Of a stretch of 64,000 nucleotides of DNA, positions 7,105 through 47,060 are shown piece after piece; position 1 is the stretch's first letter; each line of letters opens with the position of its first letter. A model generated the notes under the pieces. The model was not told the origin of the DNA and made no database searches. It saw only the letters and a program-made list of their open reading frames with translations. Both the position numbers and the translations under genes were made by a program. This DNA comes from Sclerodactyla briareus (lineage: Eukaryota > Echinodermata > Holothuroidea > Dendrochirotida > Sclerodactylidae), in the NCBI GenBank assembly GCA_026419785.1, contig JAODTK010000311.1, forward strand, positions 62,001 through 126,000. Direction: 5' to 3'.

Positions 7105-10100
7105 TGGATTGATCATTGTGGCCGCCTGTCCTTCTATCTATCATATCTATTATCCCATCTGTACAGTTGGCTCTTTTGGCCATGTTCGGACATCTTTGCC
7201 CTCAAGAAGGTCAAGGTCTTAAAGGAGGCACAATGAGCCAATGTGTGCAAAATTTCAAAAGTATCTCCACTAACTAGGGATTGGACCCAACCCAAAACAA
7301 TATCTAGTCTAGTTTGATCCATGTGAGCTTCCCGTCATTCTATCTATCTATATCTTTTTATCCATTTCCTGTCAACATTTGGCTTCTTTTGGCCTATGTT
7401 TTTTGGACAATCTTTGCCCTCAAGAATTCAAAGATCTTTAAAGGGGCACAATGAGCCAATGTGGTGCAAATGTTCAAAGTATCTCTACTAATGGATGGCA
7501 TTGACCCACCCAAAACAATAGCTATTCTAGGTTGATCCATTGTGTGCCGCCTGTCATTCTTCTATCTATATCTATTTAATCCATTCTGTCAACATTTGGC
7601 TTCTTTTGGCCCATGTTCGGAATCTTTTGCCCTCAAGAGGTCAAAGATGTTAAAAGGGGCACAATGGGCCAATGTGAGCAAAATTTCAAAAGTATCTCTA
7701 CTAACTATAATGGCATTGACCCAACCCCAAAACGAATAGCGATAGCTACTCTAGGTTGATCCATTGTGTGCCGCCTGTCATTCTATCTATCTATATCTAT
7801 TATCCATTCTGTCAACATTTGGCTTCTTTTGGCCTATGTTTGGACATCTTTGCTCTCAAGAAGGTCAAAGATCTTAAAGGGGCACAAGAGACAATGTTGT
7901 GCAAATTTCAGAAGTCAATCTCCACTATCTAATGGGCAATTGACCCAACCCGAAACCATAGCGTCTAGGTTGATCCATGTGAGCCTCCTGTCCTTCTTCT
8001 ATCTAATCTATTTTATCCCTTCTGTCAACACTTTGGCTCCTTTTGGCCTATGTTCGGACAGCTTCGCCCTCAAGAAGGTCAAAGATCTTTAAAGGGGCAC
8101 AAGAACCATGTGTGCACAATTTTCAAAAGTATCTCTACTAACTAATGCATTGACCCAACCCAAAACAAAAGCTAGTCTAGGTTTATTCCATTGTGAGCCG
8201 CCGCCTGTCATTCATCTATCATATCTATTATCCTTCTGTCACCATTTGGCTTCTTTTGGCCTATGTTTTCGGACATCTTTTCCCTCAAGAAGGTCAAAGA
8301 TCTTTAAAGGGGCAACAGGCCATTGTGAGCAAAATTTCAAAAGTATCTCTACTAACTATAATGGCATTGACCCAACCCAAAACAATAGCTACTCTAGGTT
8401 ATCCTTGTGACCGGCCTGTCATTCTATCTATCTATATCTATTGGGATCCTTGTTTCAACATTTGGCTTCTTTTGGCCTATTTTTGGACTCTTTAAAGGGG
8501 CACAACTGTGCCCGCAAGAAGTAAGATCTTTAAGGGGACAATGAGCCAATGTGTCAAATTTTCAAAAGTATCTCTACTAACTACTGCATTGCCCCCACCC
8601 AAAACCAAGGCCTATTCTAGGTTGATCCATTGTGTGCCGCCTGTCATTCTATCTATCTAACTTTATTTATCCATTCTGTCAACATTTGGCTTTTTTGGCC
8701 TAGTTCGGCATCTTTTGCCTCAAGACGGTCACATATCTTTAAAGGGCACAGTGTCCAATGTGGTGCAAAATTTCAAAAGTATTCCACTAACTAATGGCAT
8801 TGACCCAACCCCACCCAAAACAATAGCTACTCTAGGTTGATCCATTGTGAGCTGCCTGTCATTATATCTATTTATCCATTCTCGTCCAACAATTTGGCTT
8901 CTTTTGGCCTATTTTCGGACATCTTTGCCCTCAAAAAGGTCAAAGATCTTTAAAAGGGTCACAATGATCCAATGTGTGCAATTTCCAAAAAGTAATCTCC
9001 ACTAACTAATGGCATTGACCCAACCAAAACAATAGCTACTCTAGGTTGATCCATTGTGAGCCGCCTGTCATTCCTATCTATCTAGATCTATTTATCCATT
9101 CTGTCACTTTGGCTTCTTTTGGCCTATGTCGGCATCTTTGCCCTCAAAAAGGTCAAAGATCTTTAAGGGGCACAAGGGCCATTGTGAGCAAAATTTCAAA
9201 AGTATCTCCCACGAACTAATGGAATTGACCCAACCCAAAACAATAGCTAGTCTAGGTTGATCCATGGAGTAGCTTCCTGTCCTTCTAGCAAAACAACTGA
9301 CTCATATCTATACTATTTATCCATTCTGTCAACAGTTGGCTTTCTTTGGCGCCTAATGTTGGGACATCTTTGCCCGCAAGAAGGTCAAAGATCTTTAAAA
9401 GGAGGCACAATGAGCCAATGTGGCAAATTTCAAAAGTATCTCATACTAACTGATGGCAGTTTGAACCCAACCCAAAACAATAGCTAGTCTAGGGATGATC
9501 CATGTGAGCGAATTGTCATTCTATCATCTCGATCTATTTATCCATTCTGTCAACATTTGGCTTCTTGTGGCCCAGTTCGGAAAGTGCTTTGCCATCAAGA
9601 AGGTCAAGATCTTTAAAGGGGCACAATGAGACAATGGTGATGTGCAAAATTCAAAAAGTTATCTATACTAACTATAATGGCATGCGCCAACCCAAAACAA
9701 AGCTGACTCTAGGGTGATCACATGTGTGCGCCTGTCATTCTTCTATCTTATCTATTTATCCATTCTGTCAACATTGGCTTCTTTTGGCCTATGTCTCATG
9801 GACATCTTTGCTCTCAAGAAGGTCAAAGATCTTTAAAGGCACAGATGAGCCAATGTGTGAAAAATTTCAAAAGTATCTCACTATTAATGGCATTGACCCA
9901 ACCGAAACAATAGCTCGTCTAGGATGGATCCACATGTGAGCCGCCCTTCGTCAGTCTATCTATCTATATCCTGTATGGATCCATTCTGTCAACATTTGGC
10001 TCCTTTTGGCCTATGTTCGGACATCTTCGCCCTCAAGAAGGGCAAAGATCTTTAAGAAAGGGGCACATAGCAACCAATGTGTGTGCAAATATTTCAAAAG

Positions 10101-11870
10101 TAAAAAGTATCTACTGTACTAACTAATGGCATTGACCCAACGCCAAAAACAAAGACTCGTCTAGGTGATCCATTGTGAGCCGCTACCATTGTCATTCATC
10201 TATCTTAGTCTTTCTATCCATTCTGTTAACATGAGGCTTCTTTTGGCCTATGTTTGGACATCTTTGACCCTCAAGAAAGCGTCATCAAGATCTTTAAAGG
10301 GCACAGTGTCCAATGTGTGAAAAATTTCAAAAGTATCTCTACTAACTATAATGGCATTGACCCAACCCGAAAAACAATAGCTACTCTAGGTTGATCCATT
10401 GTGAGCCGCCTTGTCATCTATCATATCTATATCTATTATCCATTGTGTCAACATTTGGCTTCCTTTTGGCCTATGTTTGGACATCTTTAAAGTGGCACAA
10501 CTTGCCCTCAAGAGGTCAAGATCTTTAAAGGGGCCACAATGAGCCAATGTGTTGCCAAAATTGCAAAAGTATCTATACTAACTAATGGCATGACCCAACC
10601 AAAACAACAGTAGTCTAGGTTGATCCTTGTGAGCGCCCCCTGCTCATTCTATCTATCTATATGATTGTCCATCTGTCAAATTTGGCTTCTTTTGGCTATG
10701 TTCGGACATCTTTGCCCCAGCAAGAAGTCACAGATCTTAAAGGGGCACAGTGTCCAATGTGTGCAAAATTTCAAAAGTATCGCTACTAACTAATGCATTG
10801 ACCGCAACCCAAACAATCGCTAGTCTAGGTTGATCCATTGGAGCTGCCTGTCATTATATCTATTTATCCATTTTGTCAACATTTGGCTTCTTTTGGCTTA
10901 TGTTTGGACATCTCTCTGCCCTCAAGAAGGTCAAGATCTACAGGGCAAAACTGTTTTGTGGCCCTCAAGACGGTCAAAGATCTTTAAAGGCACGATGGGC
11001 CATTGTGAGCAAAATTTCAAAAGTATCTCTCCACTAACTAATGGCATTGACCCAACCCAACCGATAGCTGTCTAGGTTGATTCCATTGTGAGCTTCCTGT
11101 CATTATATTAATTTTCCATTCTGTCAACATTGGCTTCTTTTGGCCTATGTTCGGACATCTTTTGGCCCTCAAAAAATAACAAGGTCAAGTCTTTTAAAGG
11201 GGCACAATGAGCCAATGTCTCAAATTTCAAAAGTAAAATCTCCACTAACTAGTGGCAGTTGACCCAACCCAAAACATAGCGTCTAGGTTTGACTCCATTG
11301 TGAGCCGCCTGTCATTCTATCCTAATCTATATCTATTTCTCCATTCTGGTCAACATTTGGCTTCTTTTCGGACATCTTTAAAGAGGCCCATGAGCCAATG
11401 TTGCAAAATTTCAAAGTTATCTCCACTAACTATGGCACTGACCCAACCAAAACAATAGCTAGTCAGGTTGAACCATTGTGATCCGCCTGTCATTCTATCT
11501 ATCTATATCTGCGTTTTATCCATTCTGTCAACAATTTGAGCTTCTTTTAGGGCCTTATGTTCGGACATCTTTGCCCTCAAAGGTCACATGATCTTTGCAA
11601 TAGGCACATGATCCAATGTGTGCAAAATTTCACAGTATCAGCCACTAACTAATGGCATTGACCCAAAAACAAAATCAATAGCTAGTCTAGGTTGATCCAT
11701 GTGAGCCGCCTGTCATCTATCTATTCTATATCTATTCTGTCAACATTCTCTTCTTTTGGCCTATGTTCGGACAATCAAGATCTTCAAAGAGGCACAATGA
11801 GGCCAATGTTGGCAAAATTTCAAAAGTATCTCCCTAACTAATGGCATTGCCCAGACCACCCAAAGTGACA
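7105..11870 (+). repeat. Satellite array, ~218-bp monomer, ~21 copies
   Basis: A monomer recurs head to tail. The landmark tctaggttgatccat falls near 7307, 7529, 7751, 7968, 8178, 8392, 8617, 8832, 9043, 9252, 9490, 9713, 9919, 10158, 10388, 10614, 10827, 11072, 11283, 11463 and 11686, giving a mean spacing of about 219. Each monomer also carries a (TCTA)n stretch after cgcctgtcattc, then ctgtcaacatttggcttc, gatctttaaaggggcac and ggcattgacccaaccc. Copies differ mostly by one- to three-base indels, and a few are internally shortened (for example near 11340-11460). Short open frames inside the array are only repeat translations. Confidence 0.95.
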
Positions 11871-42105: not shown

Positions 42106-44430
42106 AGTACAAAGGATAGGCCAGTTCAAAGCAGTATATTTTGGGTCATCTGGAGCAGGTCCCGTGCCGGTGGAGGAGCCGGAGGTTGTTTTTCGATTGT
42201 TTTGACCTCCCCGGAGGTCAAATGAAAGAATAAGCGAGGGTGCCTCTCGTCACCGTGGTGGCGGAAGTCGTGAATGGCCGTCGGCCAACTTGAAAATTGG
42301 TTTCGAATAGTTTGAGGTACAATCGTAGCTTAAAACATCAGCCTGGGGGTTTTGTGGGGCCGAGGATTCCGATTTTTCATATCAGTTTCATTATTCCAAG
42401 TCTCCAAATATCGCAATCCAAAATGGCCGCCGTCGCCATCTTGAAAATTGGTTTCAAATAGTTTCTAGGCACATCGTAGCTTAAAACCTCATTCCTGGGG
42501 TTTTGTTGGTCGAGAGGATTCCATTTTTTTTCCTAATCAGTTTCATGATTCAAGTTCTCTTTATATCATCAAATCCAAAGGGCGACGTCGGACATCTTGA
42601 AATTGGGTTTCAACTATTTTGAGGTACTCGTAGTTAAACACATTTCTGTTGTTTGGGGGGGTCGAGGAATTCATTTTATTAATGTCATTCATGATTCAAA
42701 TAAATGATATCCCAAATCAGGATTCCTCCCAGCTTCCGATTGGTCGCAATTTTGAGTTCATTTTGATTCGTTTCATAGTGGAAAGCGAGGTTGGTCCCTA
42801 AGCTTTTGTCCTCTTGGAGAATAAACTATAACAATTAGTGAGGAGTTCCCTCGTGCATGGAGGACAGAATTGAGGGTGGCTATAAGTCAAAATGACTGCT
42901 GTTGCCATCTTGAAAATTAGCACGTGGGCCAATCGGCAAACATCTACTCCTTCATATAATATACTATTTCACAAGCTTGGAAAGTTCAAGGAGTACATAT
43001 TTCCGATCAGTTTCATATGACCTAATTTTGACTTTCCACAACAAGTTAGCCGCAATAGTTGGGGTCAATTTTTCAGATCGTCGCAGCTTCAAATCGACAT
43101 CGGCGTCGCTCCGATTGAAAAAGCTCACCCACTACTTAAGTGATCGCGGAATTATGAAAATGAGAACTTGATAACTGACTAAAATTGTTGATATGCTAAT
43201 AATATCTAGTTGTACTGAACGCTTTCTCGACTACCAAGCGGCTTCACAGATATTTCATAGGCGCTTGTACGCATTTGAAATACTTGAATTGAAACATTAG
43301 CATAGATTGACGCGTCACTCAAGTACTCGCCACAGTGTTCCCATTGTGCAGATATGATCACTCATTTGCCGGTATGGTAGTGGTGTGCCTCTGGTAGACA
43401 GGTTCAAAATATAGCAGCGATATATAACACATCCAACAGTGACTTGTTAGCATTAGCAACCATTCTGGGCTTTACTCTCAGATCTACCATTGTCCATTCA
43501 GTCCTTAGTAGCACTTGTAGCTATCGCTAATCGAAGTAGTCCAGTAATTTTCGTGACACAAACTATTCATCTGGATCGTTCGAGTCATCATTCACTGTCA
43601 CCCATCGGTACCACCGGCGATAAGGAGCGGATTGGAAAAAGGTGACATGTGCGGCGGACGGACTGGTCGGTACTTCCCATTCATCACCTCGTGACCCTTA
43701 GAGAGACGGGTGTTCTAGTCCTCAGCAGTGGTGGTTTAACTTGTCGTCATCAGGGGCACGGCGGACTGTGCTCTTCTTCATTTTGGTTGCGCCATCAATG
43801 TCTAGGCTGCCCACAGGTAACAGCGTCCATTTTGGGACAGGACGAATGTTTTCATCTCTGCCCTTATTTCTTTCCGCAATTCCAGGCTCTCGCCTATCCC
43901 CCAAGTGCTCTTGTGCCGATGATCAGTCCTCACTTCTGCAAAGATTCTTCTGACGTACCATAGAAGGCCTGGTGTGTTGTTTCCTGTTACTACCAGCTCA
44001 GATTGGCGGTACACACGAAGAGGGGCGACCCCCCCCCCCATGACCCATTGATCAGTACGACTTTTTTAAACAACAAAAACGATTTTTTTTTTTCAGTTCT
44101 GTAGGAGGATTTGCAACGTTATTCAGCGAATATTGCAGCAGCATGTATCTAGGTGCCCCACAATTGTAACTTATTTGCCACTAGGGAAGGATGAGGCCAT
44201 TTATAAGGGTTCACTTCCCTTGGAGTTTCGACCTCAATCAACCCCCCACCCCTCCAGACAACTCTCTCAGTACGTGCCACGGAAAGCATTGCAGGATGTC
44301 CTGGGATCCTCGCTGTCTAAAATAACGACTCCGCTGCAGTTTTCTCATCCTTCACTTGGCATAGCGGAATAACATTATTGTAGCTGCCTCCAACTGTTGG
44401 AAAACGGAGGCCTCGCTCGTGTGCCTGTGT

Positions 44431-44637
44431 TCAAGTTGTTCGACGTCTCGCCTTACCAGTAAATAATGTCGCATCCCGCGCGATCACCAGTGATATTACG
44501 TGCTCCTTTAACCTTCTTTGTAGTCTGACCTTGTTACTGGGGGAGCCAGCCATTGGTCCTTGAACTCCCACGGCACCAGAGCATGCGTCGTCGGCTTTAT
44601 AGGAGCCATTTGGGGATTTGAACATGTTTGGCTGCAT
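44431..44637 (-). CDS. Unassigned ORF inside the foldback-like element
   Basis: A 68-residue frame begins MQPNMFKSPNGSYKADDACS and contains a basic stretch (NKVRLQRRLKEH). No family is recognised. It follows the segment at 44,904-45,300 on the same strand, so the two could be parts of one broken element gene. Confidence 0.2.
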   Translation of the reverse strand: MQPNMFKSPNGSYKADDACSGAVGVQGPMAGSPSNKVRLQRRLKEHVISLVIARDATLFTGKARRRTT

Positions 44638-44903
44638 TCGGTCGTGTCATCATCTTCTTGCTGAAAGTACGGTCCTATGCCATTCAACGAGAAGGATTAG
44701 ACGATCTCTCGTGTGGCATTGAATGATGAACATACTGCAATCTCATCGAATTCTATAGTCACTCCAACGTCTTCTGAGCCATCCTATTGGCAGCCTCACG
44801 ATCTCGGGGTGTGGTAGTAGCAAAGAACCAATAGCCCATTTCCACAAGGGCAAGTATTTTTGTGTTTTTCCCAGGTGTTGGATAAACGCGCCAGTGCAAC
44901 AAT

Positions 44904-45300
44904 TTACTCTCCTAGTTCGATCAAAACCCGATCCGTCTGCAAGATTAATGAGACGGTAGCCCAGACCTCTATCAGGAAGCTACTCTCATAGGATGCACTG
45001 AAAGAGTCACGCATCTGCTCATTCACGAAATTGCGTCTCTCATTCCTGTAGATGGGTTTGGCATGATAGACATCGTCTTCGTAAACACAACCCGTGCTCA
45101 AAATGTATTTTGCTTCCCAACTCTGGGGAGGACTGTATAGTGACCTCAGCACTGATTTGATTCTTGTTCGACTTCGGAGTCTGTCCGAAGCTGTACACCA
45201 GTTTCGCGAGATGCCCAGAGATACTGCGATACGTAGAAAGTGATCGAACTGTCATATTTTCTCTAACACCTATAGGTTTACACAAAATAATTGTATGCAT
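44904..45300 (-). CDS. Unassigned coding-like segment inside the foldback-like element
   Basis: Two overlapping minus-strand frames look coding. One reads SPPQSWEAKYILSTGCVYED, with YRNERRNFVNEQMRDSFSAS a little further on. The other, upstream, reads ENMTVRSLSTYRSISGHLAK. A frameshift between them would give about 150 residues. I recognise no transposase motif. Its position between the terminal inverted repeats makes an element-encoded protein plausible. Confidence 0.3.
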
Positions 45301-46389
45301 ATTTATTTCCCTAACGACGCTAGCATTTCAAAGACAATCGAATGTAATGCGAGGTTGATGGCCGAAGACCCGTTCGCTCTCTCGAAACATCACAGTTATT
45401 GATGTGAAAGTGTGTAGGTCAGCTGTGTATTAACGCCCTCGAGCCCTTGCGTCTGCCGTGAGAGTTAGGGGCTGGGGTCTGCTACTTCATCTGTTTTTTC
45501 CATTCTGAGAAGTGTGTTTAAATCATGCTCCAGGGAGGAATGTACTGTATAGTTTTTTCATCAATCTGCCAGAGATCTTATTCTTGAGATGGTGGACGCG
45601 TGAACAGGGGAGGGTACATGCTGTCTTCGCATCCCATTTTCAGTTATCCCACACGTACCATAAATGAACATTGATTCAATGAATCGTTAGATAGTGGGTT
45701 CTCAATTGTGCCCATTCCAAAGCTATAGGCGGCGAATTTCGAAATTGACCAAATGTGCGTTTGTATTGGATCGACGAACATCTTTAGGAGTGGAGGGGGA
45801 GGGGCTACTTGGGCTTTCAATCTTTATATTTGAACTCCTCTCTTCACCCTTCTAGTATACCCCACTCACCTCAGGAGGTGGGGAGCTCTCATTTCAGCCT
45901 ATCAGGTATATGAAGTGACGAATTTGAATATCAACCAATCGGACGCTGTGATGATGTAAGGATACTTGGAATCATGAAACTGATATGGAAAATGGAATCT
46001 TGACCCCCAAACCCCAGAACTATGTTTTAAGTTTACGATGTACCGTACCATACAAACTTTCTGAAACCATTTTCACGATGGCCGACGGCGGCCATTTTGG
46101 ATTTGAGATATTAAGAGACTTGGATTCATGAAACTGATATTAAAAATGAAATCCTCGACCCCCAGAACCCCAGGCATGATTTTTAACCTACCATGTACCC
46201 AAACTATGCGAAACCAATTTTTCACGATGGCCGACGGCGGCCTTTTTGGATTTGGGGCCACTCACGACTTCCGCCCACACTTTGGCGAGAGCAACCTCGC
46301 TTATTTTCTTATTGACCTTCGAGGAGGTAAAACATCGAAAAAAACCCACCTCCGCTCTTCACCGTCACGGGAGTGCCCAGATGACCCAA

Positions 46390-47060
46390 CTGGTAATTAT
46401 ATCCCCGACACTGTAAGTGTCTGGGGATATTATGGTTTTGGGTGTGTAGCCGCCGCCGCCCAGGCTCCGCCGCCGCCGCCGGAAACTTTAGGCGTTAGCG
46501 CAATAACTCTCTAACGCTTTATACGATTGATCTGAACTTGGTACACATGTCCGCCCTAGTGAAATCTCGGATGAGTTCGAAAGTGCATGGGCATCGCTGC
46601 AATGTTGAGGGCCGCTAATTTGCATAATTTACGCGAAATTTTCAAGTTAGTCGGATTCGAACGAAACTTGGTGGGGTCGGGATATAGTTATCCCCAAAAT
46701 GTGGAGGAGGTCATTCAAGGTCATCGGAGGTCAAATTTGCAAAATTTTTGCGATTTTTCCAAACTTTGTCAGATTTGAACGAAACTTGGTGGATGGGAGT
46801 TACATTTGTTAAAAGTCATTTCAAAACCATCGTGGGTCAAATTTGCATAACTCATGTGCCTATTAACCTCCATGGATTAAAACAAAACTTGGTGTATGAA
46901 GTTGATCTTGGTTTCTGACCAAAATGGGGGTCTTAATGGGAGTGATAGATACTTACTTAGTAAGTACTTACTTACTTAGATACTTCTTCCCTATGATTGC
47001 TCAAAAGCGGGGGATATACACGTGGGCGGTTTCTGTTACCCGCCTACACAGGTTAGTTGT
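46390..47060. repeat. Dispersed repeat with terminal hairpin and 'aacgaaacttggtgg' units
   Basis: It opens with a hairpin at 46,400-46,433 (tatccccgacact, loop gta, agtgtctggggata). A (CCG)n tract follows at about 46,449-46,482, then repeated 'gtcaaatttgcaaaattt', 'gatt(c/t)gaacgaaacttggtg' and 'ggaggtcattcaaggtcatc' units. The end near 47,010 again contains gggggatatacacgtgggcg. A relative lacking the hairpin lies at 26,815-27,050. Confidence 0.6.

Follow-up and report, generated by a model that had tools for sequence, protein, structure and literature searches.

A foldback-like, apparently inactive transposon family with 3-bp target-site duplications in Sclerodactyla briareus

The window analyzed here, a 64,000-nt stretch of Sclerodactyla briareus DNA, contains a 4256-bp element (42137..46392) that very likely represents a DNA transposon with foldback-like arms from the terminal inverted repeat (TIR) class, old, non-autonomous, and apparently no longer active, that was mobilized in trans and inserted with 3-bp duplications of the target site. 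The family appears to be new, while its architecture is known; its duplication fits neither Mutator-type foldbacks nor Tc4.

The original prediction, made from the sequence of the window, had placed a foldback-like element with inverted arms of ~150-bp subrepeats at 42141..46389. An element is present there, but its termini, when aligned to the family end TAGTTGGGTCATCTGG, extend it to 42137–46392, and it is flanked by the trinucleotide GTA as a direct repeat on the left (42134..42136) and on the right (46393..46395). Similarly, the true end lies a few bases outside the 13-base terminus that had been proposed for genome searches. (Features given without a strand here and below have no strand assigned.) The element starts with a left terminal block of ~140 bp without unit repeats (42137..42276, + strand), which has its inverted partner in the right terminal block (46256..46392, − strand). 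Inward of these blocks, the left arm (42277..42735, + strand) consists of three direct units of ~150 bp beginning at ~42277, ~42422, and ~42570, the third of which is decayed; the right arm (45940..46255, − strand) carries two ~150-bp units (45940–46104 and 46090–46255) inverted relative to those of the left arm. Counted from the originally predicted ends, positions 1–431 on the left match positions 1–441 on the right with 77% identity over 465 aligned columns (E 4e-80). This match and the recurrence of the units confirm the predicted inverted arms, and the window element has what characterizes foldback architecture, long TIRs built from direct repeats. The arms are real but shorter than the ~600 bp expected for them: the paired inverted portion is ~430 bp, and the third unit of the left arm lacks a full counterpart in the right arm. 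Two to four subrepeats per arm had been counted; in the window copy, there are three on the left and two on the right. Between the arms lies an interior (42740..45940) that genome-wide matches show to be common to the family and in which frame and Pfam tests detected no coding.

The ends of the window copy are decayed, reading TATTTTGGG on the left and CAGTTGGG on the right; the family terminus is TAGTTGGGTCATCTGG, or TAGTTGGGTCATCTGGGGCACTCC as a longer pattern. With up to three mismatches allowed, the longer pattern was found 24 times in the genome, compared to 0 matches of the reversed control. The element ends read TAG...CTA, TA being part of the element. CACTA (EnSpm) elements have CACTA/G termini; such termini are absent here, the element termini being TAGTTGGG.

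Relatives of the element are present on at least 42 contigs of the 319-Mb genome, 29 of which were found by a search with the left arm and 13 added by the terminus pattern. The left-arm search yielded at least 45 matches on its 29 contigs (40 of 106 candidates scored), many of them as inverted pairs 3 to 5 kb apart, and the interior search yielded at least 78 matches (40 of 1114 candidates scored). For the arm units, there were at least 51 matches (40 of 89 candidates scored), and those listed lie only on contigs with a terminal-block or terminus match. Twenty regions, including the window locus (L009), were fetched. Four of them, in which only one end was located (L020, L023, L025, and L026), were excluded, and the remaining 16 full or near-full copies were aligned, with one end of the aligned stretch placed by eye in L018 and L027.

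The TIRs found in the window copy have counterparts in the paired ends of relatives, and the 16 aligned copies have arms and interior in common and in one order, with patchy matches in the most diverged copy, L028. Left-arm unit matches number two or three in 13 copies, four in L011, and one in L024 and L028; on the right, there are two in 12 copies, three in L012, and one in L019, L021, and L028. Pairwise identity among the aligned copies is 66 to 84%, and identity of each copy to the 16-copy majority sequence is 78 to 91%; this star-like pattern is that of an old burst of copies. Since all 16 aligned copies are eroded, the family looks inactive. The length of the element in the 16 end pairs used for the duplication analysis below ranges from 3.0 to 5.1 kb, except for a short form of 419 bp (L042; G000:C1509:275500-276200) that has both termini and may be a miniature derivative of the same family. 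At another locus (L019; G000:C485:130000-138000), two element ends (1172 and 7400) are followed by the same right flank, so that a segment with the element and its flank was probably duplicated, as opposed to two separate insertions.

The interior had been thought to contain minus-strand coding-like stretches and to mark an autonomous or semi-autonomous family. This part of the prediction was not borne out, as no frame is clearly beyond chance. Open frames in the 16 copies reach 194 amino acids (aa) at most. The longest frame of the majority sequence is 180 aa, whereas shuffling gives longest frames with a median of 114 (95% value, 166; maximum, 214). First-order simulations had as few stops as the majority sequence, or fewer, in 14 of 100 cases over 150 codons and in 5 of 100 over 250 codons. 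A profile search of the interior against transposase families, also suggested at the outset, was equally unproductive: Pfam had no match at E 1 when three copies (that of the window, L021, and L024) were scanned in six frames, and the matches in six frames of the 16-copy majority were all far below the curated cut-off. Rfam returned 0 matches over the whole window at the gathering threshold.

We considered whether the family may instead be a decayed autonomous element, with a transposase gene that was split by introns in the interior and has been eroded in every copy. The ~3.2-kb interior is big enough for such a gene, the 180-aa frame slightly exceeds the 95% shuffle value, and the 250-codon simulations point in the same direction. 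However, this frame overlaps a nested repeat, the proportions of simulations with equal or fewer stops are those given above, and Pfam found no match in three copies and none near the cut-off in the majority, which makes a decayed autonomous element quite unlikely. The nested repeat is ~250 bp long (44029..44278 in the window), occurs alone at five loci that were read, and recurs, complete or partial, in all of the 16 copies except L028. It was therefore probably already part of the source element before the burst.

A transposase was also sought outside the aligned copies. Six loci with element ends and a differing interior (L043, L045, L046, L048, L052, and L059) were scanned in six frames, and no transposase was found; overall, scans of copies and of loci with element ends detected no DDE transposase. 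The only matches in the six loci, pieces of reverse transcriptase on both strands in L059 (85-4901), lie beyond a lone element end. The interiors of L050 and L051, which were inspected for open frames, are also partly unmatched. The DDE_Tnp_4 domain (PF13359) matched 14 places in the genome, none of them on the contigs listed with left-arm or terminus matches, and no element end motif was found near the domain in the 4 of these 14 places that were scanned. Searches with PF07592 (ISAzo13-type, for Zator) and PF02992 (for CACTA) each gave 0 matches in the genome but also 0 in 14 control genomes and are hence uninformative.

The family has a target-site duplication of a fixed length of 3 bp and of varied sequence. 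With copy ends eroded and their positions set by the aligner within indel-rich sequence, the aligner's placement gives matching 3-bp flanks in 7 of 16 end pairs, compared to a permutation mean of 0.82 and a maximum of 5 in 5000 shuffles. The matching duplications are GTA in the window copy (L009), CAA in L011, ACG in L012, TGG in L015, ATA in L016, AAG in L022, and TTT in L024. When the right end of L019 is re-placed by one deleted base, after its duplicated neighbor, an eighth match (TAC) appears, and the count becomes 8 of 16 (permutation mean of 0.87, maximum of 6); without L019, it is 7 of 15 (P = 1e-5). Four of the pairs without a match (L010, L028, L042, and L058) agree at two of the three bases; the others are L013, L014, L017, and L021. 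No excess was observed among the 16 pairs for duplications of 1, 2, or 4 to 12 bp.

Empty sites and duplications had been named in the original prediction as worth looking for. In addition to the 3-bp duplications, one empty site was found, that of the relative L024, while for the window element itself there is no convincing one, its flanks matching relatives on the right side only. The L024 empty site lies within the window, in a copy of another repeat that lacks the insertion (46803..47050, − strand). When the L024 flanks are joined around a single copy of the duplication, they match this stretch through the junction (76% over 249 columns), the left flank differing from the window copy by a gap of ~30 columns, located in a simple repeat of GTAA type. 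The junction falls in a T run, with four T's in the window compared to five in the 3-bp join; it fits a 4-bp duplication (TTTT), which is indistinguishable here from a slip in the T run, better than a 3-bp one. A separate repeat at 46396–47050 adjoins the right side of the window element and has relatives in the flanks of L024 and L028; judging by a translated motif, it is probably also present inside the element copy of L057.

A duplication of TA was the initial reading of the ends and was dropped after the end alignment had been corrected and the permutations performed. TA does precede most ends, as would be expected of a Tc1/mariner-type element. However, this TA belongs to the element end (TAG...CTA), and the flanking trinucleotides match outside of it; the L024 empty site shows no single TA in place of the element; and the DDE_3 domain (PF13358) has 0 matches in the genome, while being detected in 3 of 14 control genomes. 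A Tc1/mariner-type element is thus highly improbable. That two solo repeats stand here in chance opposition, for which four loci (L046, L048, L052, and L059) with only the terminal 70 to 170 bp in the stretch fetched might be cited, is scarcely credible, because both arms are shared together with a common interior by 16 copies, and the 3-bp duplication flanks the arm pair as a unit.

For a non-autonomous TIR element, the following course of events may be proposed. A transposase made elsewhere would recognize the element by its TAGTTGGGTCATCTGG ends, with the repeated units possibly recognized as well, excise it, and insert it through staggered cuts of 3 bp. The copies would derive from one or a few source elements in which the nested ~250-bp repeat was already present, and would have decayed afterwards. 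We infer that the element was mobilized in trans by cut-and-paste and that its arms grew as units were duplicated. The arm units may provide extra binding sites, as is reported for the long TIRs of Galileo (PMC3688188); alternatively, they may be a mere product of unequal exchange.

Among the foldback descriptions compared, and as far as the accessible text goes, the closest is that of Tetris of Drosophila virilis, a non-autonomous foldback whose long TIRs contain ~220-bp tandem units (PMC4079207). According to the same partial source, Tetris makes duplications of 8 to 10 bp, has middles that vary in composition and size, and has units that also occur in satellite arrays; its authors place it in Mutator and state that most foldbacks seem to be members of Mutator (PMC4079207). 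On this account, the window family resembles Tetris in the internal tandem units of its long TIRs, in a middle without coding capacity, and in that an autonomous partner was not found. In contrast to what is described for Tetris, it has a 3-bp duplication, a middle common across copies, and units that, among the matches listed, occur only on contigs with the element. Kinship with Mutator-type foldbacks finds no support: the duplication is 3 bp, and at lengths of 8, 9, and 10 bp, 0 of the 16 end pairs match, also when one mismatch is allowed.

Galileo, an element with a P-type transposase, makes 7-bp duplications, whereas those of the window family are 3 bp and no transposase was found in the loci scanned. 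The available parts of two accounts assign Galileo to the P superfamily and describe its TIRs as long, internally repetitive, and resembling Foldback (PMC3688188 and PMC3573991), features that the TIRs of the window family share. None of the eight matching duplications (GTA, CAA, ACG, TGG, ATA, AAG, TTT, and TAC) has the form TNA, and none is TTA or TAA. Tc4, which duplicates TNA (3 bp), is similar in its fold-back structure and in duplication length, and PIF/Harbinger elements duplicate TWA; the sequences of the duplications here fit neither. In the accessible part of its description, Tc4 is a fold-back element with a CTNAG target (PMC11071193). Zator and AcademX, for which the portion of the source available gives duplications of 3 bp and of 3 or 4 bp, respectively (PMC10045372), are likewise similar in duplication length; they were compared by description, and no transposase link was found. 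The literature searched, which was seen in part and included few subscription journals, yielded no foldback element that duplicates 3 bp of free sequence. Many unclassified non-autonomous families with 3-bp duplications are present in Repbase, and the window family is therefore most likely one more such family, with unusual arms.

A more specific proposal, which we regard as rather unlikely, is that TAG...CTA ends, duplications of 3 bp of free sequence, and ~150-bp units in tandem mark a lineage moved by transposases of a group so far without a link to foldbacks, which would bind the units cooperatively. If true, foldback architecture would have arisen independently once more, outside Mutator, P, and Tc4. 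The window family adds a foldback-like family whose duplication length does not fit Mutator-type foldbacks, and it bears on the suggestion of Marzo et al. 2008 (cited in the available text of PMC4079207) that different lineages evolve foldback structure independently. In addition, long inverted arms at several dozen loci may be potential sites of ectopic recombination.

Elsewhere in the window, a satellite-like tandem array occupies positions 7109–10939, with a unit of ~213 bp, 17.6 copies, and 77% matches.
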